From Acholoe squamosa (lineage: Eukaryota; Annelida; Polychaeta; Phyllodocida; Polynoidae), in assembly GCA_949317995.1 (NCBI GenBank), contig OX439044.1, positions 46,642,166 through 46,706,165 on the forward strand: 64,000 nt of DNA. The letters are read 5' to 3'. The translations under genes and the position numbers were made by a program. The notes beneath the pieces were generated by a model. The model saw nothing but the letters and a program-made list of their open reading frames with translations, did not search any database and was not told where the DNA came from. Below are positions 11,605 through 54,115 of this stretch, piece after piece (within the stretch, counting starts at the first letter, position 1; each line of letters opens with the position of its first letter).

Positions 11605-11709
11605 CATTTGTCAGAACACCCCCACCTTACGGGAAACTCATGAACCAGTACACATGTGTATCACATGACACACAAGGTGTCGGGTCCATCGTTCGGCGTG
11701 GTTGTTTTT
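11605..11709. repeat. ~104-bp direct duplication, left copy
   Basis: Nearly identical to 12492-12594: both contain CATTTGTC, ACACCCCCACCTTA, GGGAAACTCATGAACCAG, ACACATGTGTATCACATGAC and GGTCCATCGTTCG. The copies differ at about seven positions, including a 2-base indel. The pair brackets the LINE fragment exactly. Confidence 0.85.
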
Positions 11710-12491
11710 CTTATTCTAGCTAACTGTATAACCTTGCAGTTTGCCCTATCATATACAGTACAAATATGCTTATTGAAGGATAGTTTATTATCTAAGATTA
11801 CACCCAAATATTTGAAGGCTTGTACTTCTTCCAGTTGTACTCCCCTAATATAGAAATTGGGATGTATATGGCTGGTGGTGGGCCAATGAACATCAATTGT
11901 GTTTTTTTTCTGATTTATTGTAAGACTGTTCATAATACACCAACTTGACAACTTGTTTAAAGCAACTTGTAGCTCCCTCAGATCAGTGGAGGAAATCACA
12001 GCATCATCAGCATAAAGAACTAAATTGCAGTTTCCTACCTGCTTCACTAGGTCATTTATAAATAGAAAATTAACAAAATAGGACCTGCTGTTGAGCCTTG
12101 TGGCACTCCATACGTTATTGGCAAGGTCTTAGAAAATTTGTTATTCACACCAACTTCCTGAGTCCTATTTGTCAGGTAGGACTTAAACCAATCACATGCA
12201 TTGTCACTAAGTCCATAATTAGATAATTTTTGTATCAGTATAGGGTGGGAAACAGTATCAAATACCTTTTTATAGTCAATAAAGTTAAGAAGGTAGTTTT
12301 CCTATTGTTAAAGTTTTCATAGATCATATCCAAATAAGCACTGACAGCAGATAATGTAAAGTGATTTTTCCTGAAACCATGTTGGGCACAAGTGATATAC
12401 CCTTCCATATAATTTTTAAGCCTTGTAATAACTAATTTTTCAAGAATTTTGCCAGGTGGTGGGAGTTGGCTTATGGGCATTAGATCATTCA
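11710..12491 (-). mobile_element. LINE reverse-transcriptase fragment, truncated at both ends
   Basis: The minus strand encodes the fingers/palm part of a non-LTR RT. At 12235-12492 come ISQLPPPGKILEKLV and a QHGFRKNH motif. Next is a YGVPQGSTAGPI motif at about 12060-12120, with a stop shortly after it. At 11661-12047 come the catalytic LYADDAVI and the YLGVILD motif. The endonuclease, the 5' part and the whole 3' end after the palm are missing, and at least two frame breaks interrupt it. Motif style places it in the CR1/Jockey group; the clade is not resolved. Truncation at both ends plus the flanking duplication is not what ordinary target-primed reverse transcription leaves. The last codons of the open frame run into the left duplication copy. 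Confidence 0.8.
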
Positions 12492-21780: not shown

Positions 21781-22878
21781 CGTGACTAGGGCAAACTCCA
21801 AGTGTTATTGGGATTTGGTGAGCGTGAACCCCCCAGAAATATCAGCCTGCCCTGCTAAGATAATGTAGCACTGAGTAGAGCTCTAGGCCTATAACGTATT
21901 TCTATCATTACATAACGTATTTCTATCATTACATATACACTACAAGAACAACTCAACAACAACTAATAATTATTGCAGTGTCAGCATCTAGGACAGAAAT
22001 ACTACTTTGTACCGCTTTCTTCCAATATTTCCACCTTCACTCCAGAAGATTACATCAATAATATTCTTCTCTACACAAAAGAGGTAGGTACCTAGTTCGC
22101 CTCAGCATATTAACTGCCCATAGTGTGAACATGTTGCCATGACCCCCATTACCTATCCATATACACATGAGGGGAGATGATTCAAGTGCCTCAAACCAGA
22201 TACTAACCAGTCCTACACTGTGCACATGATGTGATAGGTGTGATAGTAGTGGGGCATGCTGAGGACTGATGGGACTACATTACTCACACCACCTCAATCT
22301 ATTACCATCTGAATGATACCTCTAACCCACTATAACTATCATCACCACAACTGCTAATGCACAGCATGCCGTATAAATACATAAAAAGACCAATAGAAAA
22401 TCTAGGGTAGGTAGCGTTACCTGAATTTAACAGTTCGTTCACGCTCGATTAACCTTCATCTTAAAGATCGTATCCCAACAACTCTCCTTTACTTAAAAAG
22501 GAATAGGCAATATATTTCATACAGAATTATGCACATAAAGTTCTACCCAGAATATTTACTGTAGGTCGACACTAAAGCTACTGGATAACATAACTGTTTG
22601 GTACTTCATGGATGAGTGATCACGTGTGTAGACTGGATGCCTACTGATTCATTGGTGACACTATTTGGCTCTGAGATGTACTAGCACATACACAAGTTTC
22701 ATCTCAAACAAAAGGTTTACATACTGCCCATCTTCTATTAAAAAGGGGTAATGGAAAAAAACATATATAAAGAGAGATAGTAAAGCAGGTATTGTATCCA
22801 TTATTGTAGGGGCCAGCTGGTGGAGCCCCCTTCTGTTATAGCCCTTAACTATCAGAAACTTGGTAAACATTTCCCGTC

Positions 22879-23250
22879 ATAAATGTAAAAAAGGGTAAAT
22901 ATTCCCAAAACCCTCTCCGGGTTGTTCTTGTAAGTACTGCTAAAGTAATAAATTGACACCAAAGCTAGAAGTGCAGTTTGATTGGTCTATGTTTCGACCC
23001 TTTCGGGTCTTCTTCAGGACTCACTTTATTCTATGAGGCATGACAGGTACATAAGTTGTGGAGCCCTTTCTCAGGTCTCTTGGTGTTTCCATGGTAACCT
23101 GGTAGACAATGGCAATTTTGACTACAATATGAGGCTTATTAACAATAAATTAACAATAAATTCCTTCACAATCCTACTACACCAGGCTGTCTCATACTTT
23201 ATGATACCGGGTACAAAATATAAACTTTTTATTTTTTTTTAAAAAAGTTT
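22879..23250 (-). repeat. 3' pLTR of the Penelope-like element
   Basis: Nearly identical to 27203-27580. By eye the differences are: T for C at 22990 within a former CpG, a rearranged GGTGTTTCC versus TTGGTTCC, C versus T in ACACCAGG, and variable length of the T/A run at the end. It lies about 105 bases beyond the stop of the zinc-finger ORF. The frame at 22982-23242 is an artefact repeated in the other copy. Confidence 0.9.
22983..23024 (-). ncRNA. Hammerhead-like ribozyme motif in 3' pLTR
   Basis: Minus strand: GTC then CTGAAGA (core 1), an A, a GACCC-GAAA-GGGTC stem-loop (stem II), then GAAAC (core 2). In this copy the following bases are AT, where the other pLTR has GT. That loses the self-complementary ACGT that would form the short helix III in a dimer. 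Hammerhead ribozymes are known in Penelope pLTRs; the extra A next to stem II also needs checking. Confidence 0.6.
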
Positions 23251-23355
23251 GTTGAGGGTTGGTCTCAGGCAAATGTGCCACAGTTTCACATATGTGTGTC
23301 AGACTTCAATTGCAATTCTGATATCATTTCTCAAGTGAGTGTGTCAATGTTCTAG

Positions 23356-24207
23356 TCAGTTGAGATTGGGAACAATACACTGTCTATGAGCTCGTTCTAA
23401 GAGAGGTGGGAAATCCTCAAGCACATGCAATTGGTCTTCAAGATTCACAAAGTTTATAGGTGGATATTCCTCCCAAGGGTATGGGATTTCCACAAGGGTC
23501 CTGTCATCTTTTACATCAGAGGCATCAATTGTCTTCATCAACAGAGTGGTTTTGTCTGAGTAGGAACTAGTGGGGTTAGCAATGTCTGGAACAGGTGTCA
23601 ATGTGGCATCAAGTGTAGCATCTGTAATGCCTGAGAGAGTTACAGCCAATTCCAAAATATCTGCACTTTGCAGTGAGATATCGCCGTGGTCATAGTTCGG
23701 GATGTCCTGTGGTTCGTCCATCAATGGGGTGGACATATTAACAGTTGTGGCGGTGTTAACCAGATTACTATAGGTGGAATGTTCATATTGAGGCCATACC
23801 GGTACAGTTATAGGTAGTCTGACGGCTAAAGGGTGGATCTGGGACTTCTTGGCAGGGAGGTGACTTGGAAGATCCATGTCTGTAGTGTCAACAGCATTCT
23901 TGAAAGCGGTATTCATGTTGGTGTCCCTTTTCCTGGTGTATTCCATTAATAAGTCATTGTAGTCTGTGCACATGTTTTCACTCGGGGTGGGAATGTAGCT
24001 TAGACCCGGTCCTAGAGTGCTGTGTGGGTGGATGCATCTTTGATGGCGATTGAAATTGGAGCGTTTAGCAAATAAATGTCCACAGTCAAGGCAACAAACC
24101 TTGGAAAGGCCATGAAACATATTAAGGTGTCTCCTCAGCGCCTTGATCGACACAAAATGCGTCTTGCAACCGTCACACTTGAATGGCATTTTTCTAGGAA
24201 TGGTCAT
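23356..24207 (-). CDS. C2H2 zinc-finger protein encoded inside the Penelope-like element (ORF2)
   Basis: An intact 283-residue frame. It begins 14 bases inside the end of the RT/GIY-YIG ORF: ATG at 24207-24205 overlaps the last codons, in a different frame. It stops about 105 bases before the 3' pLTR. Two classical fingers sit at the N-terminus: C11-x2-C14-x12-H27-x4-H32 and C39-x2-C42-x12-H55-x4-H60. Both have the usual aromatic and Leu positions (FKCDGCKTHF and VCCLDCGHLF). Residues 61-283 are acidic and Thr/Pro/Asp-rich with no domain I know. It lies within the TSD-bounded unit, so it belongs to the element. It has no stop or frameshift while the N-terminal region is damaged. A role in DNA or RNA binding, target choice or regulation is inference. 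Translation would need reinitiation or termination-coupled start, given the overlap. Confidence 0.8.
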   Translation of the reverse strand: MTIPRKMPFKCDGCKTHFVSIKALRRHLNMFHGLSKVCCLDCGHLFAKRSNFNRHQRCIHPHSTLGPGLSYIPTPSENMCTDYNDLLMEYTRKRDTNMNTAFKNAVDTTDMDLPSHLPAKKSQIHPLAVRLPITVPVWPQYEHSTYSNLVNTATTVNMSTPLMDEPQDIPNYDHGDISLQSADILELAVTLSGITDATLDATLTPVPDIANPTSSYSDKTTLLMKTIDASDVKDDRTLVEIPYPWEEYPPINFVNLEDQLHVLEDFPPLLERAHRQCIVPNLN

Positions 24208-26023
24208 TAAGACCCAAGGGAATGTATGTCTTCAACAACTTAATCCAGGCTTGTTCCAAACGTAACCGGTCGTTTGTTCCATGGGCACTGCTGTCTACTA
24301 TTGTCATGGTGACGTTGGTAACCCCGCAACCCGTGTCGTTGCGATAGTGGTTGGCAACGTTGGTGTCTTTGGGTTCACCCTCTCGTGGATTGGTGTCCCC
24401 CAGGTGTTGTCCAAGGCGAACCTTGGCAGCATGGCTTGTCTGCCCCACATATTGTTTAGCACATTTCTTGCAGGTCAAGACGTAGACTACGTTATTTGTC
24501 TTGCACGTGTTGTGGCCGACGATTCTATATGATTTCCCCGTAACGGTGCTGGTTATTTCGGTTGCCATGGTGATTCTGTTACAATGTTTACAACGTCCAC
24601 ATGACTCGCTGCCCGGCGTGTGTGTAAAGTGAGGATGAGGGGTGTGTATTAGTGCTGTTCTGAGGCTGTGTGCTTTTCTATAGGCAATCATGATCCTCGG
24701 GGGGTATTTCTCCGTATTGATGGGGTCTGCTGTTATAACCGGGTATAAGTCTTTCAAGAACCTGGCAATGGGTTGGTGTTTGGGGTTGTACTCCGTAACA
24801 TAGGTTACGATGTTGTTTGTCTCCTTGGGAACGGGGTGAAGTAGGTCATGGCGGTCCAGTCCTGCGGCCTTGGCCATAGCCATGCGCAGTAACTTGCTTG
24901 GATACCCGTGCTGTTTGAAGACTTGGATCAGCTTTTTACTGTCCTTTTCATAGTCAGTTGGGTCTGTGTCTATCTTTTTCAACCTCATTAATTGGGAGTA
25001 CGGGATAGACCTTTTTAGAGCATTAGGGTGGTAAGAGTGGTAATTTAGGTAGGTGTGAGCATCTGTGGGTTTGGTGTAGAGACGTGTTAGTAGTTTTCCT
25101 GTGGATGCTCTGTAGACAGTGGTGTCTAGGAAATTGACCCTTTCCGAGCTTATGTCAGCTGTAAATTTGATGGTGGGGTGGAATTGGTTGATGTAGGCCA
25201 CGAAGTCTAAAGCATTCTGTTCACCTTTGATGATTGTGAATATGTCATCAATATACCGGTACCAGACCAATGGTTTGATTGCACTTTGTCGTAGTAGTCT
25301 CTCCTCCAGGTTGCCCATGAACAAGTTTGCGTAGTTGGGTGCCATCTTTGTCCCCATGGCGGTGCCTTCAATTTGTAGGTAAAAATTACCATTAAATTCA
25401 AAGGCATTCTTCGTGAGTATTGTGTGTAGGAGTCTCGCTATCACGAAGGTGTGAGGTTCCTTCACCTGTCTCTTATTTAGGTAATCCAGGGTGGCTGCTA
25501 TGCCTTCTACATGTGGTATGGACGTATACAAGGAAGAGACATCAATGGTGAGTAGTTGGTGGTCCTCCTCCAGGGTGGGGATCTCCTCCAATGTGTTTAT
25601 GAAGTGGGTGGTGTCTTTGATATAGCTCGGTAATTGGGTAGCTAGTGGTTTGATAATTTTATCTACATAGGCACTGATTTTTTCAGTTGGGCCCCCGCAG
25701 CCTGATATAATGGGTCTTCCTGGATTACCAATTTTGTGTATTTTGGGGAGAGTGTAGAACTTGGGTGTTCTGGGGTACCTTGTGGTGAGGTGATTTTTGC
25801 TGTTGGGAGGTAAATGACCCTGTTTTTCCAATTTGTCCAAGTCAGCCATCAAGCTGTTGTTGTACTGGTTTGTTGGGTCTTTATTCAACAGCATATAGGA
25901 ACGTTGATTGGTGAGTTGCCGCAGGCATTCGTCTTCATATTTAACCCTGTCTTGTAGAACCAGTGCACCTCCTTTGTCTGCACTTTTTATAATCAAATCT
26001 CTATCTTCCTTGAGTGATTTCAA
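24194..26023 (-). CDS. Penelope-type reverse transcriptase with C-terminal GIY-YIG endonuclease
   Basis: An intact 609-residue frame, open upstream to 26296 without a known start, so the real protein is longer. Visible parts: DKGG at 16-19 (Penelope DKG motif); FYTLPKIHK at 89-97; GRPIISG at 102-108; DVSSLYTSIP at 161-170 (catalytic Asp); GTAMGTKMAP at 220-229; catalytic YIDD at 257-260; VNFLDTTV near 297-304; a Cys cluster CGRCKHC at 475-481; then the nuclease, with VVYVL at 512-516, YVGQT at 525-529, Arg536 and Glu590. The RT copies the element RNA and is related to telomerase RT. The GIY-YIG nuclease is thought to nick the target. All core residues look intact. The stop overlaps the zinc-finger ORF by 14 bases. 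Confidence 0.93.
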   Translation of the reverse strand: MKSLKEDRDLIIKSADKGGALVLQDRVKYEDECLRQLTNQRSYMLLNKDPTNQYNNSLMADLDKLEKQGHLPPNSKNHLTTRYPRTPKFYTLPKIHKIGNPGRPIISGCGGPTEKISAYVDKIIKPLATQLPSYIKDTTHFINTLEEIPTLEEDHQLLTIDVSSLYTSIPHVEGIAATLDYLNKRQVKEPHTFVIARLLHTILTKNAFEFNGNFYLQIEGTAMGTKMAPNYANLFMGNLEERLLRQSAIKPLVWYRYIDDIFTIIKGEQNALDFVAYINQFHPTIKFTADISSERVNFLDTTVYRASTGKLLTRLYTKPTDAHTYLNYHSYHPNALKRSIPYSQLMRLKKIDTDPTDYEKDSKKLIQVFKQHGYPSKLLRMAMAKAAGLDRHDLLHPVPKETNNIVTYVTEYNPKHQPIARFLKDLYPVITADPINTEKYPPRIMIAYRKAHSLRTALIHTPHPHFTHTPGSESCGRCKHCNRITMATEITSTVTGKSYRIVGHNTCKTNNVVYVLTCKKCAKQYVGQTSHAAKVRLGQHLGDTNPREGEPKDTNVANHYRNDTGCGVTNVTMTIVDSSAHGTNDRLRLEQAWIKLLKTYIPLGLNDHS

Positions 26024-27092
26024 GGCGGATCTTTCTCCCAGGGTGAGGTTATCATTGACTTTTGAGGGTTTCTTCAGACTTTGTATTTTCTGTGAGAGAG
26101 AGGTAGAGAAGCAGTCGACAAAAGCATTAAGGCCGGCTGTTGGAGTCCAGCCTTTAGAGGGTTTATCCGGTGCATAGTCTGGAGTGGCTTGTTGGTCAGG
26201 ACTGTTCTTATGTAATTCAATTAACCTTCCTGGTAAATAAGAGACAATCTTGGAGTGGGTGAGCCGGGTGTGGGTCTTTTGGTGTGGGAATGAAATTTAT
26301 ACCTTTTTCTAAGAGACTTTTTTCATCTGGTGTGAGGATATGTGTGGAAAGGTTTACAACTGTCTCTCTGGCACTTGGAGGTTTTGGCCTCCTGAAGTGC
26401 CGGTTTTTGCACTTCCTCTGTTGGTTTTCTGTGCTCTCTCTTTGTTGGTGGCTTTCTGTGCTAGTTCTTGTGCTAGGGCTTCCTGTTGTTCTGCTATGCT
26501 GTCCAGAATCTCTTTGCACTCCGTTGGGTTGCATTTTTCTTTCATGTTTTGTGTGACTGATTCAAGGTCTGATTCTATTTTTGTGATTCTCTGTCGCCAA
26601 TAATCCCTAAGAATTAGGGTGATGGTGCAACTGAACTCAGCATGGGCCTGTTCCCAATTAGTGACAAAAGTTGGGTCTATCTCTGGAACTTGAGGATTGA
26701 CATTCACTTGGAGACCCCTAGGGGTGGTGTTGTTGTCTACATGTGCTGACAACAAATTGTGGTGGAGTTGGGCTCTTGTTTGCCCGAGACCTATTCTCTT
26801 TAGGGTTTTGTACCATACAGAGCGCCCGGGTGAGTGGAGGCGCGGGAGACCTCCTACGGAGCTGTTTTGGCTTGCCTTGGTTACGCGTCTGGTTGCCCTG
26901 GTTACCCTGGTTGCCACCCGTGCGTTGTGCATCTGGGTTCCTGTGGGTGCCATTTTGTTCGTCGTCCGGTCTTGCTCTCTTGTTTTTCTGACTGTCGCTT
27001 GATGTAAATAATATTGGAGTACTTTGTCCACTTGTGGATGCTTGCGCATCTCCACCCGGGGGTGATCCAAGGTCTGGATTCCGGTGAGCCAT
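26024..27092 (-). pseudogene. N-terminal region of the Penelope ORF, frameshifted
   Basis: Coding signal moves between two frames. A polar start (MAHRNPDLGSPPGGDA, 27092) passes into a helical, charged stretch (about 26354-26800, with NWEQAHAEFSC and a KIESDLESV coiled-coil-like part). It then moves to a segment containing VVNLSTHILTPDEKSLLEKG and FIPTPK (26270-26420), typical of the region just before the RT in Penelope elements. Finally it returns to the frame of the RT ORF below 26296 (LIELHKNSPD, KPSKGWTPTAGLNAF). At least two and probably three single-base indels are needed. They could be decay, since the sites show no obvious slippery heptamer. Confidence 0.7.
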
Positions 27093-27202
27093 GTTTTTCG
27101 AGGGGTGATTCAGACTGGGGGTCTTGTGACTATCAAAACTCGCCGGGTTGTCGGTGTGGTGGGGAGGGGATCCCAGTGGGATGCGATGGGGATAGAAGAA
27201 AA

Positions 27203-27580
27203 ATAAATGTAAAAAAGGGTAAATATTCCCAAAACCCTCTCCGGGTTGTTCTTGTAAGTACTGCTAAAGTAATAAATTGACACCAAAGCTAGAAGTGCAG
27301 TTTGATTGGTCTACGTTTCGACCCTTTCGGGTCTTCTTCAGGACTCACTTTATTCTATGAGGCATGACAGGTACATAAGTTGTGGAGCCCTTTCTCAGGT
27401 CTCTTGTTGGTTCCATGGTAACCTGGTAGACAATGGCAATTTTGACTACAATATGAGGCTTATTAACAATAAATTAACAATAAATTCCTTCACAATCCTA
27501 CTACACTAGGCTGTCTCATACTTTATGATACCGGGTACAAAATATAAACTTTTTATTTTTTTTAAATTTTTTTTTAAAAA
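27203..27580 (-). repeat. 5' pLTR of the Penelope-like element
   Basis: Direct repeat of 22879-23250. It ends in a variable run of T and A next to the right copy of the target duplication. This copy keeps CTACGTTTCG, the CpG-bearing version of the ribozyme core. Confidence 0.9.
27308..27346 (-). ncRNA. Hammerhead-like ribozyme motif in 5' pLTR
   Basis: Minus strand: GTC-CTGAAGA, a GACCC-GAAA-GGGTC stem-loop, then GAAACGTA followed by GAC. Stem I can start with GAC/GUC pairing and the ACGT can pair between two copies. This matches the short helix III of the hammerheads reported in Penelope elements. Expected role: self-cleavage of tandem transcripts. It differs from the 3' copy by one CpG transition. 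Confidence 0.65.
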
Positions 27581-27592
27581 ATTTCCGTCATA

Positions 27593-29563
27593 GAAATATG
27601 TACTGAACATGTATAAGTGTCTCTATTCTGCACATACAGAGAGCATGCATGTCAAAATAAAATACACAGAACACTTTCTAGAAGGAAACCAGATTTGGCA
27701 TAACTCTCTTTATAAACCTGACCTAGGTTGCATGTTTGTAACACACTCTATTGGATTTCAGATTACATGCTGCTTTCATCCATGATGATACCTACAAAGC
27801 CTACATCTCCTTTACCCGCACCAATTGTTTGTGTAATTTACAACAAAACTATGCAAAGCTTACCTGTAATTCCTATCTCAGATTTCTAGTAGTGTTATGG
27901 TATAAAACCTGCATTCTATCTACACATCTTTTACAACTCATATGGTCTTTGTGACGAAAGTACCGTACATTCAGCAACATGTACATAGAAACATAAACTT
28001 TAATGTACATATTACAGCCACCACCATTGACGCAAGGTCCATCTCCCGCTGTATCATACTACTAGCATTCTTCCACACCATCAATCATTCACAGTGGCTT
28101 TTGCTCCATTAAGGGCGAGCTAGAAGGGCATTTTGTTAGGCTAGGGGCCTGGATTTTGAGGAGGATATTTACCAGAGGGCGAGATCTTGCAAAACAGTAT
28201 ACAGTGCCCATGACTTCGATATTATTTTTGCATTGTATTTATCACTCTAAACTCCTCAAATTCGAATTCCTCAGCCCAGGAATAGGCCTATAACCAATCT
28301 GGCCCCAGCTCAACCACTAGCGTGAGTCGTCTCTGGCAACCAGCATTTGTGGGTAAAGTAGTTCTTGCCGGTGGTTGCTGTAGTGGTAAAATGTAGGTAT
28401 AGGTACCGTACGTAGTAATATTCCCCAGAAAATCGGGACCCACAATCCCCAAACACAAGAGAGGGTATTCCCTAGAATCCCAACCGTACACGACTAGCCT
28501 ATAATATCATCAGACCAATAATAGCAGGCCAATTAAATTTATCCCTCAATTACATAAACATGGCTGCCATATCAAGATAGTCAAGTCAATTATACTCAAC
28601 ATCAGGCCCTGTATATTGTTGAGAATACTCAACATCCGCACCTGTATGTTGAATATTCTCAACATCAGCACTCAATGGCTTTATTTGGCTCTTCTAAGCC
28701 TGCTTAAAAAAAATTCAGCTTTGAAGATACTTTTCTGTAAAAAAAAAAAGGGTGCGAGAGGGAGGCTTTTTATCTTTTATTTGTATTTAGAGTGACGAGG
28801 GAGGGCCTTTTTCATTTTTATTTACTAAATATTTTTGTGAGATACTATTTCTGGGTATCATCATCGATAAATCATACAGAAACTCGATGTAAATAACACA
28901 TTCACCTTGTAGATGGAGAAATGGGGATTAAGATACTGTTTAAATTATGTTTCTACTTAAAATAAAAACTGAGATATAAACTTTTTTGCTTTGGCAAGAA
29001 TTTTATGCAGTGGATGCGGGACTTTTACACTTTCTTTTAGGGAAAATCGGAATAAAAAGCTAAAATGCGGCCCCTTTTAGGTGATGCGGGCGGTGTCTGC
29101 AAAGCTGATTTTTTTTTTAAAGTGGCCTAAGCTTCAAACCTAGCCAAAAATGGAGATCAAATTAAAGGGCGTGCCCCCTTCTTTTCAAATCCGGGATTGG
29201 CCACTGGGCCATCTCTATATACATGTATACCCACATCAGTCAGATTCAATCGTCCATTACTCCTCAAACCAAAGGAAAATTCTTCTTGTTCCCCGGGTAA
29301 GTGTACTGGTGCTTAGGGACCCATCTCAAATGCGTACTCACTCCATCATGGTTAATGCTTTGAATTATTTACTGCATTCAATCCCTCCATACCAGGCATG
29401 TACATACTGTCAGTTACACCCACCTAAAATGTACAAAATATGGGGAGTCTAGACCACAAAGGGTTGGGATCGCAATAGGAGTATCATGCCCTATGTTAAA
29501 CTATTCCCCTCCATCTACTATACTTTTATAATGAAAGGCATCTAATTGGGGAATAACATAACT
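27593..29563. other. Gene-free stretch
   Basis: No coding region supported. At 28570-28680 TCAACAT/ATGTTGA words recur around short inverted repeats (TTGAGAATACTCAACA type). 29215-29400 is a diverged copy of repeat family R4. Confidence 0.45.
29215..29400. repeat. Dispersed repeat family R4, copy 1
   Basis: Matches 62195-62385: ACATCAGT-AG, TACT-CTCAAACC, TTCT...TGTAC-GGTGC versus GTGTACTTGTGC, GGGAC-C-TCTCAAAT, ACTCACT--ATCA-GGTTA and TCCCTCC. Diverged with indels; class unknown. Confidence 0.5.
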
Positions 29564-29936
29564 GGGGCTGTGTACAAATGACGTCATGCAGGAGGGGGGG
29601 AGGGGGGTCCCACTTGCCATGACCAAGCATGAAAAGGGGGAGGGGGGGGGGTCATGTGCTGCATGACATCATGTCATCAAGAAATCACAATATGCTTTGG
29701 TTTTGGCAAGAACAAAAACTTTTGTAAAAAGATTTGTAAAGGTAGGGAAGTTTAATGCATTCATCTGACATAAATTTATTACCTATAGTATAGGCCCTAC
29801 ATGCATGCATTCCCCAGACATCTCACTCAATGAGTGTTACTGCCATCAATGTCAGTGTAAAGTCAATGTGATGTCTAGGCCACTATAAGGGGGCACTACT
29901 ACTCTATCCTACCTATACCAATTTAACCCTTTTTGA

Positions 29937-30005
29937 AAAGGGCCACTGCTGCCCTCAGGATCTAAAATACCCCTGAACTGCTGCTGTTGCCTCAGGGCAG
30001 CATCC
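29937..30005. repeat. Truncated copy of the piggyBac-type MITE
   Basis: Begins TTAA|CCCTTT and then reads GGGCCACTGCTGCCCTCAGG, TCTAAAATA and CTGCTGCTGTTGCCTCAGG. This is the complement of the right end of the MITE at 14703-15013. Only about 70 bases of one end remain. Confidence 0.7.
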
Positions 30006-30029
30006 ATAGTAATCCACAGGCTTCTTTTT

Positions 30030-30140
30030 GAAAAGGTGTGATATTCCCCCCCCCCTTCCTTGAGATGTCAAAATTATTTTGCTCCTCCCCCAATCCACCC
30101 CCTCCCAGAATCCCACTGTTGATAAATAACGAACACTCCC
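30030..30140. repeat. Partial Harbinger-type MITE end
   Basis: Ends with TTGATAAATAACGAACACTCCC, the same terminus as the MITE at 50274-50551. It is preceded by the characteristic poly-C blocks and AAAATTATTTTG. The left end is not visible. Confidence 0.6.
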
Positions 30141-31025
30141 CTGGAGCTCTCCACCACCCTGTTGCTATTTTCACTGAGGGGATGCTTGGGGACATGTAAA
30201 AGGGACCTCCCCTCAAATTTACTCTCCACATCTTTGTCTGAATGGAACTCTATCAGACTCACCTTATTTGCAGATTCTACAGTAAAATGCTGAGGTGACT
30301 CGATTGCTTTGTAAGATCATAAATTGGAACTATGATTGCAATCAATGGTCTCCTGAGAATTTGTGATGCTTTCTGAATTTTTTTTTCTATTAGGCCACTC
30401 ACTAAAGTCAGAGTGTTCTGTCTGAAACCTATTTCTAGTACACTTGTATATGGTTCAAGTTACAGATTAAATCAATACATTCAATATATCAATACATTCA
30501 AGCTCTTGAACTATATGATCCTTAATAATAACTGTTCTTGATTTTCTCTTCGTTGACAAGTGTACAGCTTTTGCTGCAAAGAAGGCACACTATTAACTGT
30601 ATTGTACTATTGATCTAGACAGTTTTTAAGCCCTTTTGGGCCAGGAAATATTTGTGTATGATCACTACCATAGTACTCCGTGTATAGGCACGGAAATGGT
30701 ACATCCTGCATATAGGCACCCATACATTATATAAGCTGACAGTGTTTGGTATGTTTCTCTGTTCATTTGTTGATCAGTGCTAGTTCTTTTTTCACTTTGT
30801 AAGTATCTTATCCTTTATTGCCAATTCACACCGACTATATGTCCCTTTGAACCATTTCAATTTGTTTATAGCCTATAGGCCTTCACTATTCATGCACTTT
30901 GGGGGGGGGGTATCTCTCTGCATGACGTCATGCTGAGGGGGGGGGTCAAGTGTTGTATGACGAAACATGACAAGGGGGGGTCAAAAATGGTCCAAAAATG
31001 CATGACGTCATTTGTACACAGCCCC

Positions 31026-32590
31026 ACTAGAAGTGAGCGTTAAAACGCTCAAAAGATTAGAATGTGCTAATAGTCTGACAAAGATGGACAGGAACTAGCT
31101 CCTAGCAGATGTTTAGTTGTGTTATCTATTTGTATTAGGTATAGTCCTAACAAAACAATACATCTGCTTGGAGAGTCAGTTATTGCCCATTGCACTTTAG
31201 CTTGTAAGTATCACGACCTAAGTCGTCAGTATGATAAAGTCGTCATTTTGACCACCTAAAGTTGTTATATGAGAGGTTGCCTGAACAACCCTAACATCAT
31301 AACAAAGACATAGTGAATCATAGTAAAGGCACGTAGAAAGGGAATTTTGATCCCATACAACTCAATAGAGAGGTTAAAATTGTTGAACGTGTGCCTGTAC
31401 GTGAACGTCAAGGTCTAGAAGTACAGGTTCCAGTACAGGTATAAGTAAAGTAGTTAAGATATATAGTCCCCTGTGTAGCAATCAACACTTCAGGTATATA
31501 TGGTTACAGCTGTGTAGACCTAAGGCTACAAACAATAGCTAATTATACAGCTATATAAGTAGCCAAAGTGCAATACACTTATCCAATGGCTAGAGACAGA
31601 CCTAAGTATCAACTCTGTTGACCTAATAAAATTCTTCATCCATTTATTTCTTTTATCTATCTTATCTCCCAACACATACCTGTAGAGTGGCCCTACACAT
31701 CCAAAACGTCAAGGCTACAAGTTGTATGCTGCTGGTCTGGGATTCCCCCCAGGTGACCTATGACGTTACAATACACGTATGCGTTGCAGTACACGTTCAG
31801 ATCCTAACCTCACTAGTGTTAATCAAAACGAGGCTGGCAGGGCTCAATCCTGGGAAAATGCCCTGTCGATCTCTACAGCGGAGGCATAGATTTTAAACAT
31901 TTGCTTGGAGAGATTTCTGGTGTGTGGGTCTGGTCCTTTGGTGGTCATAATTATGTAACTGCTACCAGGAATCATGACAGACATCCCCTTTTCCTGTCTG
32001 TGGACATAACTAAATTAGGCCCTAAAATAGGTATGGCAATAATATGGCTATTGTGGATGAGCAGCAGCCCCAACAGTTTCTTCTTGTTGGTACCAGAATT
32101 CCACACTGCAGATCCTGGTGCTGTCTGGCTGGACTGGAATCTGAAAGATACTGATAATGAAATCAAGATGGAAGAAATGGAGGAGAGGAGTAGTGATATC
32201 AGACGGCAGACTTGTTATGTATCAGATGACCTGTTAGAACTATAGGCTGCTAGTTGAGTTTTTTTAATGTAATAGCGAATGCAATTGAATCAAATAGAGT
32301 ATCCTAAGAGCTTGCCTTCTGTCTTTGAACAGTGCCCATTCAGTAAATCAAGATTTCCGGTCAATGCATAACACAGATGATGATTGCATGAATGGGTTCG
32401 AACAGCTTGATAAACGTTACAATACTGTACGTCATTTTCAATTGCAAAATTATTCTACAATTTCAAGATTATGTCTCGATTATAGACAAAATAAAATCTA
32501 TATGTTTGAATTATGTCAGAGCAGGCAGTCCGATAATCTTGTCTCGTCACTTTAGGGTCAACATGCAGCTAACAACGAAGAGTGAGAAGT
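31026..32590. other. Spacer between two nonautonomous transposons
   Basis: Apart from the weak exon candidate at 31901-32245, nothing is supported. AT-rich, with several ACGT and CGTAC words between 31380 and 31800. Confidence 0.4.
31901..32245 (+). CDS. Candidate host exon (hypothetical, 114 codons)
   Basis: Open frame whose second half (WLDWNLKDTDNEIKM, MEERSSDIRRQTC, YVSDDLLEL then stop) has a charged, non-repetitive composition more like a real C-terminal tail than chance sequence. Possible splice acceptors lie just upstream of that part (TTCTTCTTGTTGGTACCAG ending near 32095, or CCACACTGCAG near 32110), so only the last ~45 codons might be exon. I recognise no family and no polyadenylation signal is close. 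This is a weak call. Confidence 0.22.
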   Translation: MLGEISGVWVWSFGGHNYVTATRNHDRHPLFLSVDITKLGPKIGMAIIWLLWMSSSPNSFFLLVPEFHTADPGAVWLDWNLKDTDNEIKMEEMEERSSDIRRQTCYVSDDLLEL

Positions 32591-44551: not shown

Positions 44552-45010
44552 CTAATCTGCTAGTCTCAGCAAGTTTGTAGCTACATGCTCTGTATCAACC
44601 TCGATGGGCTTGTTGTAGAATTTCTGATATGAGTCAGCTGACTTCCACCCTGCCAGGCGCATTACGGCATTTAAGCAGGATCCTACCTTGGTGGAAGCTG
44701 AAGCTGAAGCCCCACGAGTAGAGTGGGCCTTCCAACGTGAAGTGTCAATCTCAGCCATGTCTAGAGTGGCAATGGTCCACCTGGCCAGGGTATCTCTACT
44801 GATTCCGTCATGAGGCGAAATGTAACTCATAAGGAGCTGCAGTGGATTTTTAAGAGGTGGAAGGTTCAGCTTCCTCCTAAGTCGTTCAGACTTTTCACGG
44901 ACCTTTTGCCTCCTAGTGAGATATGCCTTAAGGGTGCTGACCACACAGAGCTTTTAGTATGTAGGGTCTCAAGACCACAGTGTTTAAGGGGTCACCCACT
45001 CTGTTAGACT
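44552..45010 (-). pseudogene. DIRS tyrosine recombinase, C-terminal catalytic part (after a frameshift)
   Basis: Frame 44552-44944 continues the recombinase that begins in the 44928-46352 frame; one frameshift near 44930-45010 separates them. It contains the HxxR box HSTRGAS (His74, Arg77 of this segment), Trp100 in LAGWKSAD, and the likely nucleophile Tyr110 in YQKFY. With Arg420 (TSQRGQT) in the upstream frame, the full R-HxxR-W-Y set is present. The frame ends cleanly at 44552, about 240 bases before the internal complementary region. Confidence 0.85.
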
Positions 45011-46352
45011 TTAACAGAGTACTGAGTCTGAAGACAGCATTCCTGTCTTCCCAAGACAGTTCATCTGTCCTTAACGCTAAGATTGTCTGCCCTCTTTGAG
45101 ATGTGACAAGCAAAATCAAGACAGCTAGTTTCAATGATAACTTCTTAAGTGACAAAGAACTGTTATCCCCCCAACTTTTGAACAACTTGAATACCTTTGT
45201 AACGTCCCAAAACGTGTCATACCTTGGTCCACTAGGTCTATCTTCGTATGTACCCTTCACCATATGGCAAATGTTTGGATGTTGCCCGATAGGCGCCCCA
45301 TCTACCTGTGATAACAGGGTTCCCAAAGCACATCGTGCCACATTCATAACTCCGTGACCTACTCCCGAGTCATACAAAGTTCTCATAAATTTACACACTT
45401 GTGGCATAGTGCCCTTCATCCAGTTATAACCCCGTTCAACACAGAAAACTATCCATTTGTTTATGTAAGTCGTATAAAGTTTCCTTGTAGATGGTCTCCA
45501 AGCTTTTATCATAAGGTCAATGGAAGCCTTGTCATACCCTTCCTTTTGGAGGCGTCGCCTCAGAAAAGGAAAGCTATAATTGGTAGACTTCCTATGAACT
45601 GTAGGCTTGTAGGGTTGACTCTCCCAATCCGGCATCACGAGGATTGCCCTTGCCCCTGCCCTCAATATGCGTTGAAGCACTCGGCCTGCAATGCTGAACG
45701 GAGGAAAACAATATAAGAGCTTATTAGGCCATGTGAAAGAGAAAGAGTCAACTTTCCATGCTTCTGGTTCTGGCCTACGTGACACAAAACATTGAACTTT
45801 ACAATTTGTTCTAGAGGCGAACATGTCCACCTGAGGCCTCCCAAACCTTTCACAAATGATTTCAAAAATTGAGTCATTTATCTCCCACTCAATCTCATCT
45901 TGGAAATGGCGTGACTCATGATCAGCGATGACATCATCCACTCCCGGCACATGAGCCGCTGTCAACCAGATCCCTCTAGACTCACACCAGTTCCAGATGT
46001 TTCTTGATACCAGATTACACATTGGAGACTGCAGCCCTCCCATATGTCTCACATATGCAAGTGCCGTGGTATTATCTGTCATGACCCTAATATGAGCCCC
46101 TCTCACTTTACACAACGATTTTAGCCCATATTCTATTGCCATGGTCTCGTGGATGTTGGTGTGGAAGTCCACCTCAGAGGGAAGCCATCTGCCATTAGTT
46201 CTGACGTTCCCCCTGTGTGCACCCCAGCCGTCATCCGATGCATCCGTATACAATTCAAACTCTGGTGGACCTACATCCAGTGCCTTCTTAGCAGTTGGTA
46301 TGCTGGCTTGCCACCATAGTATGTCCTGTATAGCATCCTTGGAAAGTACCAT
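44928..46352 (-). CDS. DIRS RNase H plus tyrosine recombinase N-terminal part
   Basis: 474 codons in the same frame as the RT segment upstream, separated only by a TGA. RNase H residues are visible at Asp37 (LYTDAS), Glu69 (HETMAIE), Asp93 (MTDNT) and Asp144 (IADHESR). A linker typical of DIRS Pol follows (PQVDMFASR at about 173-181, CFPPFSIAGRVL at 215-226, VMPDWESQPYKP at 239-250). Then come the recombinase core-binding helices (PSTRKLYTTYINKW) and the first catalytic Arg420 in TSQRGQTIL. RNase H removes template RNA. The recombinase inserts the circular DNA product. Confidence 0.88.
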   Translation of the reverse strand: MVLSKDAIQDILWWQASIPTAKKALDVGPPEFELYTDASDDGWGAHRGNVRTNGRWLPSEVDFHTNIHETMAIEYGLKSLCKVRGAHIRVMTDNTTALAYVRHMGGLQSPMCNLVSRNIWNWCESRGIWLTAAHVPGVDDVIADHESRHFQDEIEWEINDSIFEIICERFGRPQVDMFASRTNCKVQCFVSRRPEPEAWKVDSFSFTWPNKLLYCFPPFSIAGRVLQRILRAGARAILVMPDWESQPYKPTVHRKSTNYSFPFLRRRLQKEGYDKASIDLMIKAWRPSTRKLYTTYINKWIVFCVERGYNWMKGTMPQVCKFMRTLYDSGVGHGVMNVARCALGTLLSQVDGAPIGQHPNICHMVKGTYEDRPSGPRYDTFWDVTKVFKLFKSWGDNSSLSLKKLSLKLAVLILLVTSQRGQTILALRTDELSWEDRNAVFRLSTLLKSNRVGDPLNTVVLRPYILKALCGQHP

Positions 46353-46385
46353 TTTTGCATCAAAATTCCCTTTTCGGTAGGCTAA

Positions 46386-47366
46386 TCACTCATTCTTGCA
46401 TTTCTCAAGTCCTTTAATATGTGCAGGCCCATATTGAACTCCTGCCGAGTAAGCTACCATAAGACCTATGAGAGATGCAACCTCCCTGATTTTTGGCTTG
46501 ACTTTCCCCAGCACCAAGTAGGAATCTGACATGAATTTGTCTACCTTCTCCTGAGTTGGATATATAGACATATCCACAGAGTCAATCCAAAAACCCAAGA
46601 AGATCACCCTTTGCGAGGCTACAAAGGCTGACTTATCTGGGTGAATTACAAAGCCTAACCGATCCAGGGTTTCACACACTCTTCTGATAGATTGCTCACA
46701 ACCTTCTTTTGACTCATGCATAATAAAAGAATCGTCAATGTAGGGGAAACAGATGTGTCCCTCCTCCCTTAGCTTTGCGAAGGGGGGAGTGAGCAACTTA
46801 GTGAATACTCTTGGTGCACATGAAAGACCGTTTGGCATCCCTACAAACTGGTAGAGGACCCCATTCCACCTGAACTTCAGAAATTTACGATAATCTTCTC
46901 GTACAGGAATAGAGTAATAGGCATCCTTTAAATCTACACTCCCTATAAAACAATTAGGGGTGACAAGGTCCACAGCAGTTTGTAGGGAGGCCATCTTAAA
47001 ATGCTCATACATGACCTGCTTGTTCATATCTGTCAAATCCAATATAAGCCTGTAATCCCCATTGGGCTTGGGACGCAGGAAAACATTGGAGATGAATTCG
47101 CCCTGTTCATGTACTGTAAACTCAATAATACCCTTAGCTACCATTTTATCTACTTCCTTATCCATAAAGGCCACCTCTACCGGATCAAGTTTATATGGAG
47201 GAGGCACCCAGTCCTGGGATGGTAAGGCATTAAAGTCAATGGTGACACCCTGAGACATGGCTAAGATCCAAGGGTCCTTGGTGAGTTTAAACCAAGCATC
47301 AGCACACTTCAGAATGTTACCCCCTTGAAAAGATTGGACAGTGTTATGTAGTGGGAAGGGACTCAC
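46386..47366 (-). CDS. DIRS reverse transcriptase segment
   Basis: 326 codons. RT motifs: FLRPKPNGDYRLILDL at 96-111, SVDLKDAYYSIPV at 143-155 (catalytic Asp145), LYQFVGMPNGLSCAPRVF at 171-188, catalytic YIDD at 209-212 (CFPYIDDSFI), then LDRLGFVIHPDKS and FLGFWID. The frame ends at an in-frame TGA (46386-46388) directly before the RNase H part, which continues in the same frame as LAYRKGNFD. A single CGA-to-TGA type change would explain it. The start overlaps the end of Gag closely (Gag stop at 47372). Confidence 0.9.
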   Translation of the reverse strand: MSPFPLHNTVQSFQGGNILKCADAWFKLTKDPWILAMSQGVTIDFNALPSQDWVPPPYKLDPVEVAFMDKEVDKMVAKGIIEFTVHEQGEFISNVFLRPKPNGDYRLILDLTDMNKQVMYEHFKMASLQTAVDLVTPNCFIGSVDLKDAYYSIPVREDYRKFLKFRWNGVLYQFVGMPNGLSCAPRVFTKLLTPPFAKLREEGHICFPYIDDSFIMHESKEGCEQSIRRVCETLDRLGFVIHPDKSAFVASQRVIFLGFWIDSVDMSIYPTQEKVDKFMSDSYLVLGKVKPKIREVASLIGLMVAYSAGVQYGPAHIKGLEKCKNE

Positions 47367-47371
47367 CTGCC

Positions 47372-48783
47372 TTACTTGGGCCCCTTCTTGGAAAAACCCT
47401 GTTGGGCTTGCTGCTGCTGACCTTGGCCCTGCGGACGAGGTGCTTTGAAGCGGTAACCCTGGCCTTGTGTCTGGTAATTCTGAGAGTAAGTCTGCCTGTA
47501 GCCATGAGCCACTTGAAATCTCGGCTGAGCGTATTGATGGCGCGGAGCAGGGTAGCGGCCCCTAGGGCCCTGGACATAGTAGTGGTTCTGTCCATAAGGG
47601 TGCCTAGGTCCCCAGGCTTGAGCAGGAGCTGTGCCCATGACCTTCTGCCTCTTAGACTGGGAATGAGAATCCTGAGGCCCTGGGCGTTTGGACGCTAGAA
47701 CCTTGTCTGAGATCTTCTTGTCCTCCTCAGCTTGTTTAATACGAGCCTCCAGGTTGCCCCCAAAAAGCCATTGTGGGTCCCCATCAATGTTGGTCTTAGT
47801 GAGTGCCTTAGCATAGGGCTTAGCAAGGAAAGGCTTTAGCAAGTCCCTCCTCTTTACCGATAGCCCATTGCACACATTGACCAGTAGTCTGGTTGCCTTA
47901 TTGAAATCCCTTCCAAAGGCATCCAGTTGTTGGTCCACGGGCCCTTTCTCCAACATCATCGAGCCTAACGGTGCCATAGCTGCAATGGCCGAGACCACCC
48001 CTTTCTGCAGGGTCTGAAGAGATACATCCAGCATACGCACTGCCGCATTCTTGGAAAGTGCCTCAGAGTTGAAAATTGCTTCCTCTAACTTAGGTGCTAC
48101 CAGTCTCTGCACATTTGAAGGCCTAGGAAAATCTTTAGCCGCTTTCTCTAAGTCCTGGGCAATATAAGTCTCTTCAAAATAGGAATTGATGGCATCGGAG
48201 AGGGCTTCATGTACGGTGGGGCCTTCCTTGGTTAGTTCCGCTTTTTCCTGTCTGTAGGACTGGATACTCTCAGCTAGGCTTCCAGTTAGCCCCTTGAGAT
48301 GGTCTATTGGAGGTGGCTTAGCCTTTGACGACTGTGCCTCAAAATCACCTTGCACAGAAGCCACTTCCTCCTCATCATCCACTACTGACATAGCATGTGC
48401 CTGTCCATGTGGGCCTAGTACCACATAACCCTGACCTTCCTCCTCTACTGGTTCACACTGGTAGGCCATGTGATCCATACCATAGGCATAATCCATCGGC
48501 TGATAAGGGTCCTGATAGTAATCATAAGTCTGTTGGTAGTAGGGCATAGGGCCCATCTTTGAGGTGGCTGCTGGACCAACAGCACAGGAGCACTGGGAGT
48601 CTCAGTAGCTTGAACTTGAGGCTCCTTCTCAGAGTCTACTGAACTCACAGTGTCTTTCTCAGCACCCTTATCCTTAGAATGCCTAGATGAAGATCTAGCA
48701 GAGCTGGAACTTGAACTGGAGTTCTTATGTGATTTCTTTCCCTTCTCCACAGCAGTGGGACTGGACTGTGATGTACTTGCCAT
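47372..48783 (-). pseudogene. DIRS Gag-like protein, one frameshift
   Basis: Starts MASTSQSSPTAVEKGKKSHK at 48783, with a Ser-rich and charged N-terminus. One -1 frame change near 48555-48565 leads into a 394-codon frame (MGPMPYYQQTYDYYQDP) that runs to 47372. The middle is helical (LAPKLEEAIFNSEAL, DVSLQTLQKGVVSAI). The C-terminus is Gln/Gly/Arg-rich (YGQNHYYVQGPRGRYPAP, QGQGQQQQAQQGF), suited to RNA binding, and no zinc knuckle is seen. The frame change sits at CCTCAAAGATGG, which is not a standard slippery heptamer, so a single-base deletion is likelier than programmed shifting. Confidence 0.8.
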
Positions 48784-51599: not shown

Positions 51600-54115
51600 A
51601 CTTCAGAGTATTTTTTATCCTTGTGTCGTTTATCAATATATATAGCGATGGAATTGCTCCCGGTAATTATAAAAGAATTCTTGATACTTTGTTGAGCAAG
51701 GACGGACAAGACAAACTGGACTACACATGTAGTAGACCACATAGTATAATAACAGTGGGTGTCACTAATTATAAACTTCCTTGTATGAAAAATAGGAAAT
51801 CTTTACAAGCATGTAAGAGGAATTTTGAGTAAAATGTACATTATACAGTAAAGCATTTTTTGGAACCATCTCATACATTTGGGTCTTTAAAAGTGATTTA
51901 AACTGACTGATGTCAATATTTCTAACGTATAACCGTAGCCTGTTCCAGGTTTGGGCAACTCTAACTTCTATACTATTTTCGTAAGAAAAAGTGTTTATCT
52001 TATTATATTTCAATAACGCAGCTTCAGCATTTCTTGTGGTTCTAGGACTTATATCAGTGAATTCAATTTTTTTGGGTTCTTTTAAAACCATATACTTGAG
52101 TTTGATAATTTCTCCTGTCTGCCAGTTTTGGCATATTGCATTGTTGGTGAACATAATCAGTACCGGCATGCCAAGGAACTTTTAGACAGTGTTTCAAGCA
52201 TCTGTTTTGTACATATTGTAAAAAATCCAACGACCAGCTATTGGCGCTGTTATAAAGTATATCAGCATATTCAAATAATGGTATAGCATATGTGTTGTAT
52301 ATTCTCAATAGAATTTCAGTTGACAGCATTCTTTTTAGGCACGCTAATAAATATGATTTATGATTCAAAGACTTCACAAGTTCTTTGACGTGTTGCTTGT
52401 ATTTCAACTCATAATCCAATATTACACCTAGGTATTTTTAGTGGTTGACCTTTTACATAAATTTTGATATCATTTAATGCCAGTTTTTTTTATATTGAAA
52501 ATGGGAGGTGAACATCATAAGCTTTGTCTTTGATTCATTAAGTGTGAGTTTGTTTTTAGAAGACCAGGTTACAAAACTATCGAGAGCTAATTACATCTAA
52601 GTAGTCATTTCATTGATGTTTAAACCGGATACATATAAAACAGAATCTTCTGCGTATAGCAGAGTTTTCAAATTATTTCCCACCAATTTAATGGCATTTA
52701 CATATAATAAGAAAAAGAGTGGGCCTAAAATACTACCCTGAGGTGTTCCATACAACATATGAGCAACGCTGGAAGTCTTGTTATTTGCTATTGTGACTTG
52801 GGTATCAAGTGTAGAACAGGCTTTTCTGTAGCCGCCTTGTTGGTCACATAAAATATTATTTTCATTTAAGAAGTTTGAAATATGAGTATGGACAAAACGC
52901 TCCATCACTTTACCAGGTACCGGTAGCTGGCTTATGGGTCTATAATTGGATACTTGTGATAAATCTCCCGTTTTGGGTAATGGGGTAACCTTGGCTTGTT
53001 TCAATTTTTCAGGCACAGTACTACTGTTAATAGATAATTAAATCTTTAAATACCCTGGTAGAGATATAATCAACAGAAGATGATTTATTCACTTTTAAAT
53101 CTTTCACAACTCTCAATACTTGTTCAGTTAATACATCTAAGTCAGGTACTGACTCTTGTGCCTCTGGGCCTTCAAAAGACCAGTCAAGATTGTGCTTAGA
53201 TGCTAACTCAGGGCCAATATTACAGAAAAAATGTTTATATAGTCAGCAGATTTGTCAGGGGGAATGACTGTACTTTCGGAGTCTTTTAGGTTAATTTGTT
53301 TCACACTTGAACCTTTGGAGGGAATAATCTGCTCAATAGCTGACCAGAACTTTTTGGGATCATCAACATTATTTTCAACTTCTTCAACAACTTGTGATTT
53401 TTGGGCTTTCTTTATGTCTGAGCTCACTTGGTTTTTGAGTGTATTTGCAATGAACCAATTAACGTCTGAATTTGTTTTTCTTGCTTTTGCCAACCGTTGA
53501 TTTTTTTTCTGCAATTTGCACTTTGAGTTCCGGTGTCATTCACTCTTCATCTTTGTTTTAAATAACAAACTTTTTATTCTCGCAACCATGTGAATCCAAA
53601 CATCCAGAAATAATTTTGTGATAAATATCCCAGCATTTTGATACATCATTACATTCATCAAATTCAGACCAATCGGCGTCAATCTTTGAAAACAGATTCA
53701 TCGTAATTTTTATATGACCTTCCATAAAATTCTTTTGCAAAAATATATACCTTTTAAAATGTTTTATTCTAATGTATACCGGAAGATGGTCTGATATATC
53801 AATGTTTGCTACCCCGCTAGCATTAACTTTTACAATATTGGTAGCAAGTAAATCAACACATGTACCTGATACAGGGCGGGTCGGTTTTGATATGAGTTGT
53901 CGTAAACTAAAATCAGCAAATGTACTATATAAAGTCTCTTTAACATTATCATCTACGAGAACATCAATATTGAAATCACCTGTCAATATCACATCAAATT
54001 CATCCAATTTGTCGACCTGTGCGATAAGATTTTTTAATTCACATAATTTAGAATCTATCGTTAACCCCTTTTGTTCTTTCTTTTCTAATTTCACGTCTCC
54101 CAATAGTTTAATATA
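51600..54115 (-). pseudogene. Degenerate EN-RT LINE (CR1/Jockey group), 5'-truncated
   Basis: Minus-strand order: apurinic-type endonuclease C-terminal half (53558-54103), with ILTGDFNIDV, a TCVDLLATN block and the SDHLPV box; linker (53203-53514) with a DPKKFWSAIEQI motif; RT (52597-53016), with YRPISQLPVPGKVMERFV, YGTPQGSILGPLFFLLY and LLYAEDSVLYV; thumb/C-terminal parts (52063-52419 and 51765-52169) with YNTYAIPLFEYADILY and VRVAQTWNRL. The endonuclease N-terminus and any ORF1 are absent. Several frameshifts and stops separate the parts. The catalytic YADD reads YAED, so the RT is dead even locally. The 3' end lies somewhere near 51500-51750. Confidence 0.87.

Follow-up and report, generated by a model that had tools for sequence, protein, structure and literature searches.

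A zinc-finger frame behind the reverse transcriptase is a repeated gene of one group of Penelope-like elements in the genome of Acholoe squamosa

Introduction

What is an intact frame with two zinc fingers doing directly behind the reverse transcriptase (RT) of a Penelope-like element (PLE)? The element lies in a 64,000-nt stretch of the Acholoe squamosa genome (assembly GCA_949317995.1, contig OX439044.1, positions 46,642,166 to 46,706,165), which we call the window and within which all positions below are counted. A sequence-only reading of the window had proposed that the frame is a second gene of the element, perhaps for target choice, RNA binding or regulation. Here we ask whether the frame belongs to the element, how far it is shared among related copies, and which roles its sequence would suit.

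Results and discussion

Layout of the element

The PLE occupies positions 22879-27566 on the minus strand and is flanked by a pair of pLTRs. Its features, from upstream to downstream, are as follows.

27585-27592, no strand: target-duplication copy on the upstream side, with an exact core of 8 nt that extends to about 12-13 nt if one indel is allowed, from reading of the flanks
27203-27566, minus: upstream pLTR with hammerhead-like core, 98.6% identical to 22879-23242 over 364 bp
26354-27092, minus: ORF1, N-terminal PLE domain, one break by frame change; from the frames and from separate-frame ORF1 matches elsewhere in the genome
24194-26534, minus: ORF2, RT and GIY-YIG, open over 24194-26296, with an N-terminal block in another frame (26217-26534) and one break; from Pfam, tblastn of homologues and comparison with copies L041 and L047
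24190-24207, minus: alternative upstream start of ORF3 from the ATG at 24205-24207, giving a 14-nt overlap with the RT stop; also in L044a, L048 and L050
23356-24189, minus: ORF3, intact, 277 aa from the usual start, with two C2H2 fingers, a middle block and a C-terminal PYPWEE.PP block; from translation and alignment
22879-23242, minus: downstream pLTR, from comparison of the pLTR pair
22874-22881, no strand: target-duplication copy on the downstream side, its last bases being the pLTR edge; from reading of the flanks

In Pfam, the RT matches RVT_1 (E 1.4e-9) and the endonuclease matches GIY-YIG (E 7.5e-5, residues 511-599 of 609). RT homologues at E <= 1e-10 made up 3768 of the 7987 candidates scored in the protein collection, the best of them 46% identical. 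With a PLE-type RT, a C-terminal GIY-YIG, pLTRs and a target duplication all present, the unit can be assigned by its predicted features to the endonuclease-bearing (EN+) PLEs. Target duplications could be read in three complete copies, as TATGACGG(G)AAAT around the window unit (with one indel), TCCTATCAC and TAAATACAATA, and these have no sequence in common. All four complete pLTRs share a hammerhead-like core, CTGAAGA-A-GACCC-GAAA-GGGTC-GAAAC, which has a compensating change in L047 and found no match in Rfam, as well as a hairpin region toward the 3' end.

The finger frame itself is present and unbroken over 283 codons (23356-24207, minus strand), and both of its C-x2-C-x12-H-x4-H fingers are complete in the translation, as the sequence-only reading had reported. 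As also reported, it falls within the duplication-bounded unit, where the RT/GIY-YIG frame (24194-26296) precedes it and the downstream pLTR (22879-23242) follows. The zf-C2H2 match of this single protein, at E 1.1e-4 and 22.9 bits, falls under the curated Pfam cut-off of 25.2. When codon use was compared with that of the RT, the ORF3 frame had the top score among the six frames of the stretch, and none of 2000 first-order Markov sequences of the segment behind the RT contained an ORF of 277 codons or more, the longest being 212.

This frame had been called the second ORF of the element, but it is in fact the third, as ORF1 is separate in L041 and L047. Each of these two intact copies has an ORF1 of about 240 aa, a 773-codon RT/GIY-YIG frame (ORF2) and then ORF3, and their ORF1 and ORF2 overlap by about 150 nt in different frames. 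The damage described at the N-terminal end of the window copy is real in so far as there are two frame breaks; one further frame change, however, is common to the intact L041 and L047, and for that reason is probably the natural ORF1/ORF2 boundary. The window copy is damaged overall, with one break each in ORF1 and in the N-terminal part of ORF2, while its ORF3 is intact. Where ORF1 and ORF2 overlap (L041, L047 and window positions 26354-26534), the shift is to the -1 frame, which may reflect a programmed frameshift or an internal start. Unlike these copies, L033 has ORF1 in frame with the start of ORF2, with a stop between them.

Searching the genome with the ORF1 of L041 gave 149 matches, all in frames of at most 447 aa that are separate from the RT and too short for a fusion, so ORF1 is not fused to the RT in these matches. 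Among homologues in the protein collection, some do carry the ORF1 domain fused to the RT (P0077). At least 24 of the 51 RT matches of at least 53% identity have ORF1, RT and ORF3 in this order, a lower bound given that 54 of the 149 ORF1 matches, picked by eye near RT matches, were entered. We read the unit as pLTR - ORF1 - RT/GIY-YIG - ORF3 - pLTR, that is, as a probable three-gene PLE with the finger frame as its ORF3, and we rate this reading below together with the proposals on coupling and ligand. A separate ORF1-like frame was also seen behind an animal-type PLE RT on a contig filed under an Enterovibrio metagenome-assembled genome (L002). This contig is contamination of a bacterial bin and hints that ORF1 is a separate frame in other hosts too.

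The window holds other elements as well. At 44928-48601 (minus strand) there are three overlapping or adjoining long frames. One has an RVT_1 match (1.2e-21), another has weak matches to RNase H-like (0.0045) and Dam (0.0024) families, both under the cut-off, and the upstream frame has no Pfam match. This looks like a DIRS-type element. Fragments of LINE-like RTs and an endonuclease-like fragment lie at 11661-12128, 52597-53037 and 53558-54139 (all minus strand; RVT_1 at 3.3e-10 and 1.6e-10, Exo_endo_phos_2 at 0.0015, under the cut-off). A pair of perfect inverted repeats of 28 nt at 29563-31026, separated by 1408 nt and enclosing ATGACGTCAT, is possibly a small DNA transposon.

ORF3 copies and the PLE group that carries them

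A six-frame search of the host genome with the window ORF3 (1.48 Gb, 63 contigs; E <= 1e-3; 138 of 924 candidates scored) returned at least 105 matches, and a second query, the ORF3 of L047, returned at least 114 (141 of 1422 candidates scored). The best match besides the window aligns over residues 6-274 of 282 at 49% identity. Open frames of 241-291 aa underlie 22 of the top 25 matches, and in three of the 22 a stop interrupts the matched part. We also searched the genome at the DNA level with the pLTR and the ORF end, a search in which common words can be missed, and found no second copy of the window's own family; the best DNA match beyond the window element was 82% over about 216 nt of pLTR.

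We then looked at 10 kb around the 20 best-scoring ORF3 loci, a non-random set chosen by ORF3 score. In all 20, an RT/GIY-YIG C-terminus 57-76% identical to that of the window ends directly before the finger ORF, so that the expected pairing of the two ORFs in other copies was borne out for these loci. ORF3 has both its start and its tail in 14 of the 23 copies that they contain, and is truncated or broken in the other 9.

To see how ORF3 is distributed, we searched the genome with the RT, which gave 76 matches (72 of 2498 candidates scored). An ORF3 match follows on the same strand, no more than 700 nt downstream, at 39 of the 51 RT matches of at least 53% identity (window included) and at 0 of the 25 of at most 47% (Fisher p 2e-11). 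The 12 without ORF3 are seven copies of 55-64% identity and five matches that are copy fragments. A lack or random breakage of the frame in other copies would have counted against an element gene. Most related copies keep ORF3; against the element-gene reading stand the 12 of 51 RT matches that have none and the 9 of 23 copies that are truncated or broken. Among RT matches that reach the C-terminus, ORF3 follows within 100 nt in 12/13 at 64% identity or more, in 17/22 at 53-63% and in 0/23 at 47% or less. Beside six C-terminus-reaching RT matches of 57-64%, ORF3 was undetectable with the window and L047 queries and is either lost or diverged. The L041 ORF1 query found ORF1 upstream of 23 of the 25 low-identity RT matches (<= 47%), so this group is not simply out of reach of our searches. 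ORF3 is therefore likely absent from the low-identity group, although divergence beyond detection might mimic absence.

At L031:4529-6223, two ORF3 copies stand head to head within the arms of a 1132-nt inverted repeat, 99.2% identical. An RT and ORF3 unit occurs three times in tandem with a period of 4.32 kb at G000:C3:23356550-23368829, and at G000:C7:24432775-24436604 a pLTR-like repeat occurs four times with a period of 1206 nt and equal scores, forming a tandem array of pLTR-derived units.

Two pairs of relatives are informative on selection, and both give a dN/dS of 0.15 for the finger ORF, the ratio that the sequence-only reading had suggested computing across copies. L038 and L044b (250 codons; dN 0.058, dS 0.386) show 52 synonymous and 32 non-synonymous differences (Fisher p 3e-16), and L035 and L040 (136 codons) show 30 and 19, respectively (Fisher p 7e-10). 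Few changes underlie the ratios of L032/L033 (0.45) and L031a/b (0.20), and L031a and L031b form the two arms of a single inverted repeat. A finite dS is lacking for 122 of the 153 pairs, and the others listed have dS above 1.7; for example, the window copy, which has no close relative, gives a dS of 2.2 and a ratio of 0.28 against L038. In both informative pairs, purifying selection acts on ORF3, a result that concerns these relatives. Over 13 loci with a long RT stretch, ORF3 distances track RT distances (Mantel r 0.58, p 0.0001) and are 1.9 times as large. ORF3 is a repeated, conserved gene that is found with one PLE group in the A. squamosa genome; its recurrence behind the RT and the purifying selection in two pairs support the earlier proposal of an element gene, and it is not a single-copy capture.

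The ORF3 protein

We aligned the window ORF3 with 15 of the 23 other copies, leaving out eight that are truncated or broken. All 16 aligned proteins match zf-C2H2 in Pfam at E <= 0.1 (best 4.2e-8). Beyond the fingers there is a conserved middle block, RD..HN..YRNAVDT, and a conserved tail, IPYPWEENPP..F.HIDD followed by LPR.QRHW; neither the middle block nor the tail matches a Pfam family at E <= 0.1. Sequence matches in the PDB cover the finger region, and the best are C2H2 finger proteins, which we take to be DNA-binding. An AlphaFold model from the 16 sequences has a pLDDT of 45, too poor for use.

Across 13 copies with a mean ORF3 distance of 0.545, seven of the eight putative base-contact positions (by the numbering that we assume for these fingers) are conserved. 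The second finger has K/R/Q, S/T/C, N and R, while the first has S/T at -1, G/A at 3 and R at 6, with six different residues at position 2. The conserved contacts argue mildly for one constant ligand. This argument is weak, because conservation extends to many finger positions that make no base contact, and because one contact, position 2 of the first finger, is itself variable. The recognition code, as we presume it to apply, would suggest GAGGNN. All four pLTRs contain GAGG within their conserved hairpin region near the 3' end, but they contain it elsewhere too, which makes it a lead only.

No homologue of ORF3 was found among 5.8 billion proteins with the single sequence (E <= 1e-3) or with the 16-sequence alignment (E <= 10), in searches that need shared 5-residue words and so leave absence unproven. 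Viral contigs yielded no relative. Contigs of other genomes contained five contaminant PLE loci, and in two of these (L002 and L003) frames of at least 70 aa within 2.5 kb behind the RT have no C2H2 motif. A motif scan of 120 listed RT homologues out of 3768 found no tandem fingers fused to the RT; its matches lie in the GIY-YIG region, apart from two elsewhere (P0088 and P0096).

The junction between the RT stop and the ORF3 start

The length of 283 codons depends on an upstream ATG, and most related copies have only the ATG of codon 7. Similarity between copies begins at codon 4-9 of the 283-codon frame in most of them (codon 1-2 in L039 and L044a), and the usual start of ORF3 is the Met at codon 7 (24189), 4 nt after the RT stop in the window. 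The gap from RT stop to ATG could be read in 21 of the 23 other copies, the two arms of L031 being left out. It is -1 (TAATG) in five copies, 0 in one and 1-16 nt in 15 (1 nt in four, 2 in three, 6 in three, and 3, 5, 9, 10 and 16 in one each). The 14-nt overlap with the RT stop noted in the sequence-only reading exists in the window, but only L044a, L048 and L050 among the 21 others have an in-frame ATG with exactly this overlap, the rest having a close stop and start; at 3 of 21, it is a shared variant and not the rule.

The available part of a review of reinitiation (PMC5972666) describes an overlapping UAAUG, an AUG followed by the stop after 2, 5, 8 or 14 nt, and the case of SART1. TAATG fits the first form and the 14-nt overlap (ATG, 8 nt, stop) fits the AUG-before-stop form, whereas the commonest gaps, 1-16 nt behind the stop, fall outside the formula given there. 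Viral reinitiation motif 1 (TGGGA) was found at none of 22 starts in the 110 nt scanned upstream. We suggest that ORF3 would be translated off the RNA of the RT, with ribosomes terminating at the RT stop and restarting at the adjacent AUG, which would supply ORF3 in a lower dose than the RT.

Possible functions of ORF3

Our preferred interpretation is that ORF3 would be a nucleic-acid-binding cofactor made by coupled reinitiation, with a sequence of its own element a likelier ligand than a family-specific target. Jointly with the three-gene reading of the unit, we give it a probability of roughly 0.55. The finger pair would recognise a single, constant nucleic-acid ligand that the families of the group have in common, and the likeliest candidate is the pLTR of the element itself, in DNA or RNA form. 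The conserved tail would attach to a host factor or to the particle formed by the RT/endonuclease. ORF3 would work in trans and assist expression, priming or the assembly of particles. We weight own-element binding most because the contacts are conserved, because the three target duplications read have no sequence in common, and because the pLTR core and hairpin are common to the copies. The more specific proposal that this PLE group evolved a trans-acting two-finger third gene, reinitiated after the RT and reading, with constant finger specificity, its own pLTR for template choice or the start of reverse transcription, is tentative, and we would bet somewhat against it. We know of no PLE with a dedicated specificity factor of such a kind.

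Other roles have to be weighed against the cofactor proposal. The fingers of the R2 protein bring the nickase of that element to its chromosomal target, and ORF3 might likewise be a target-choice factor that directs the GIY-YIG nickase to chromosomal DNA recognised by its fingers. Tandem C2H2 fingers are typically DNA-binding, and the C2H2 finger proteins that head the PDB matches are in keeping with this role, but the three target duplications lack a common sequence (among four complete copies viewed, and with a target that may fall outside the duplication), and the conservation of contact positions across families is a mild counter-argument; we regard target choice as unlikely. A regulator that binds the pLTR or host chromatin and switches transcription or counters silencing, outside the transposition particle, seems to us a shade less probable still. 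Two fingers with short conserved tail blocks would suit a transcription cofactor, and accessory proteins often show larger distances than the RT, as ORF3 does with its factor of 1.9. Yet the tail contains no known repressor or activator domain at the thresholds used, and the stop/start coupling to the RT fits a regulator no better than a cofactor.

Accidental origins can also be considered, namely that the window copy alone captured a host zinc-finger gene or that the frame is open by chance. Such an origin would account for the lack of homologues in the protein search and of a second own-family copy in the genome. It is contradicted by the many diverged element copies with ORF3 in the same place and by the purifying selection in relatives. 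We rejected a capture limited to the window copy on the strength of the genome-wide matches and the RT directly upstream in 20/20 loci, and a chance frame because no simulated sequence reached the length of ORF3, which leaves either origin very hard to credit.

Comparison with known elements

R2-type elements carry C2H2 fingers within the RT protein. The window group resembles them in combining such fingers with an endonuclease-bearing retroelement, but here the fingers are on a separate protein and the few copies examined have no common target. In the non-LTR retrotransposon SART1, the downstream ORF carries the RT. For SART1, the available part of PMC5972666 reports that the stop and start of neighbouring element ORFs adjoin or overlap. 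The window group has a like arrangement, with distances of -1 to +16 nt in the window and in each of the 21 copies (out of 23 others) that could be measured; in contrast to SART1, the RT gene precedes that of the accessory protein.

Canonical EN+ PLEs of the Penelope/Poseidon type are described with a single ORF in the available parts of PMC11167929 and PMC6515669. The window group shares with them an RT with C-terminal GIY-YIG, pLTRs, a hammerhead-like pLTR core and inverted or tandem arrangements, but differs in its separate ORF1 and in the finger-bearing third ORF after the RT. We do not take a single ORF to be essential to EN+ PLEs, as additional ORFs have been recorded in PLEs before. Accessory ORFs are on record for Athena/Terminons and for Neptune-like PLEs (the latter with esterases), and the accessible part of PMC5408684 names DEDDy, GDSL, coiled-coil and TM types; the word "zinc" does not occur in that paper, though it notes a Zn-coordinating Cys-His-Cys motif in DEDDy ORFs of LTR elements. 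Unlike in these PLEs, a C2H2 ORF is a regular third gene of an endonuclease-bearing group here. Titles and abstract openings of the open-access literature contained no mention that we could find of a finger ORF in PLEs. Accessory PLE ORFs as such are already known, and a regular C2H2 third gene in an EN+ PLE group would be a new variety of them.

Conclusions

The transposition mechanism of PLEs is called relatively little known in the available part of PMC11167929, and template and target choice are largely open. Descriptions of PLEs usually give them one protein. A group of PLEs that keeps, under selection, a second, predicted nucleic-acid-binding protein gives a direct handle on these choices, in particular on what the RT/GIY-YIG protein cannot do alone. 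If the stop/start junction is indeed coupled, it would also be a natural case of reinitiation in which an accessory gene lies downstream.
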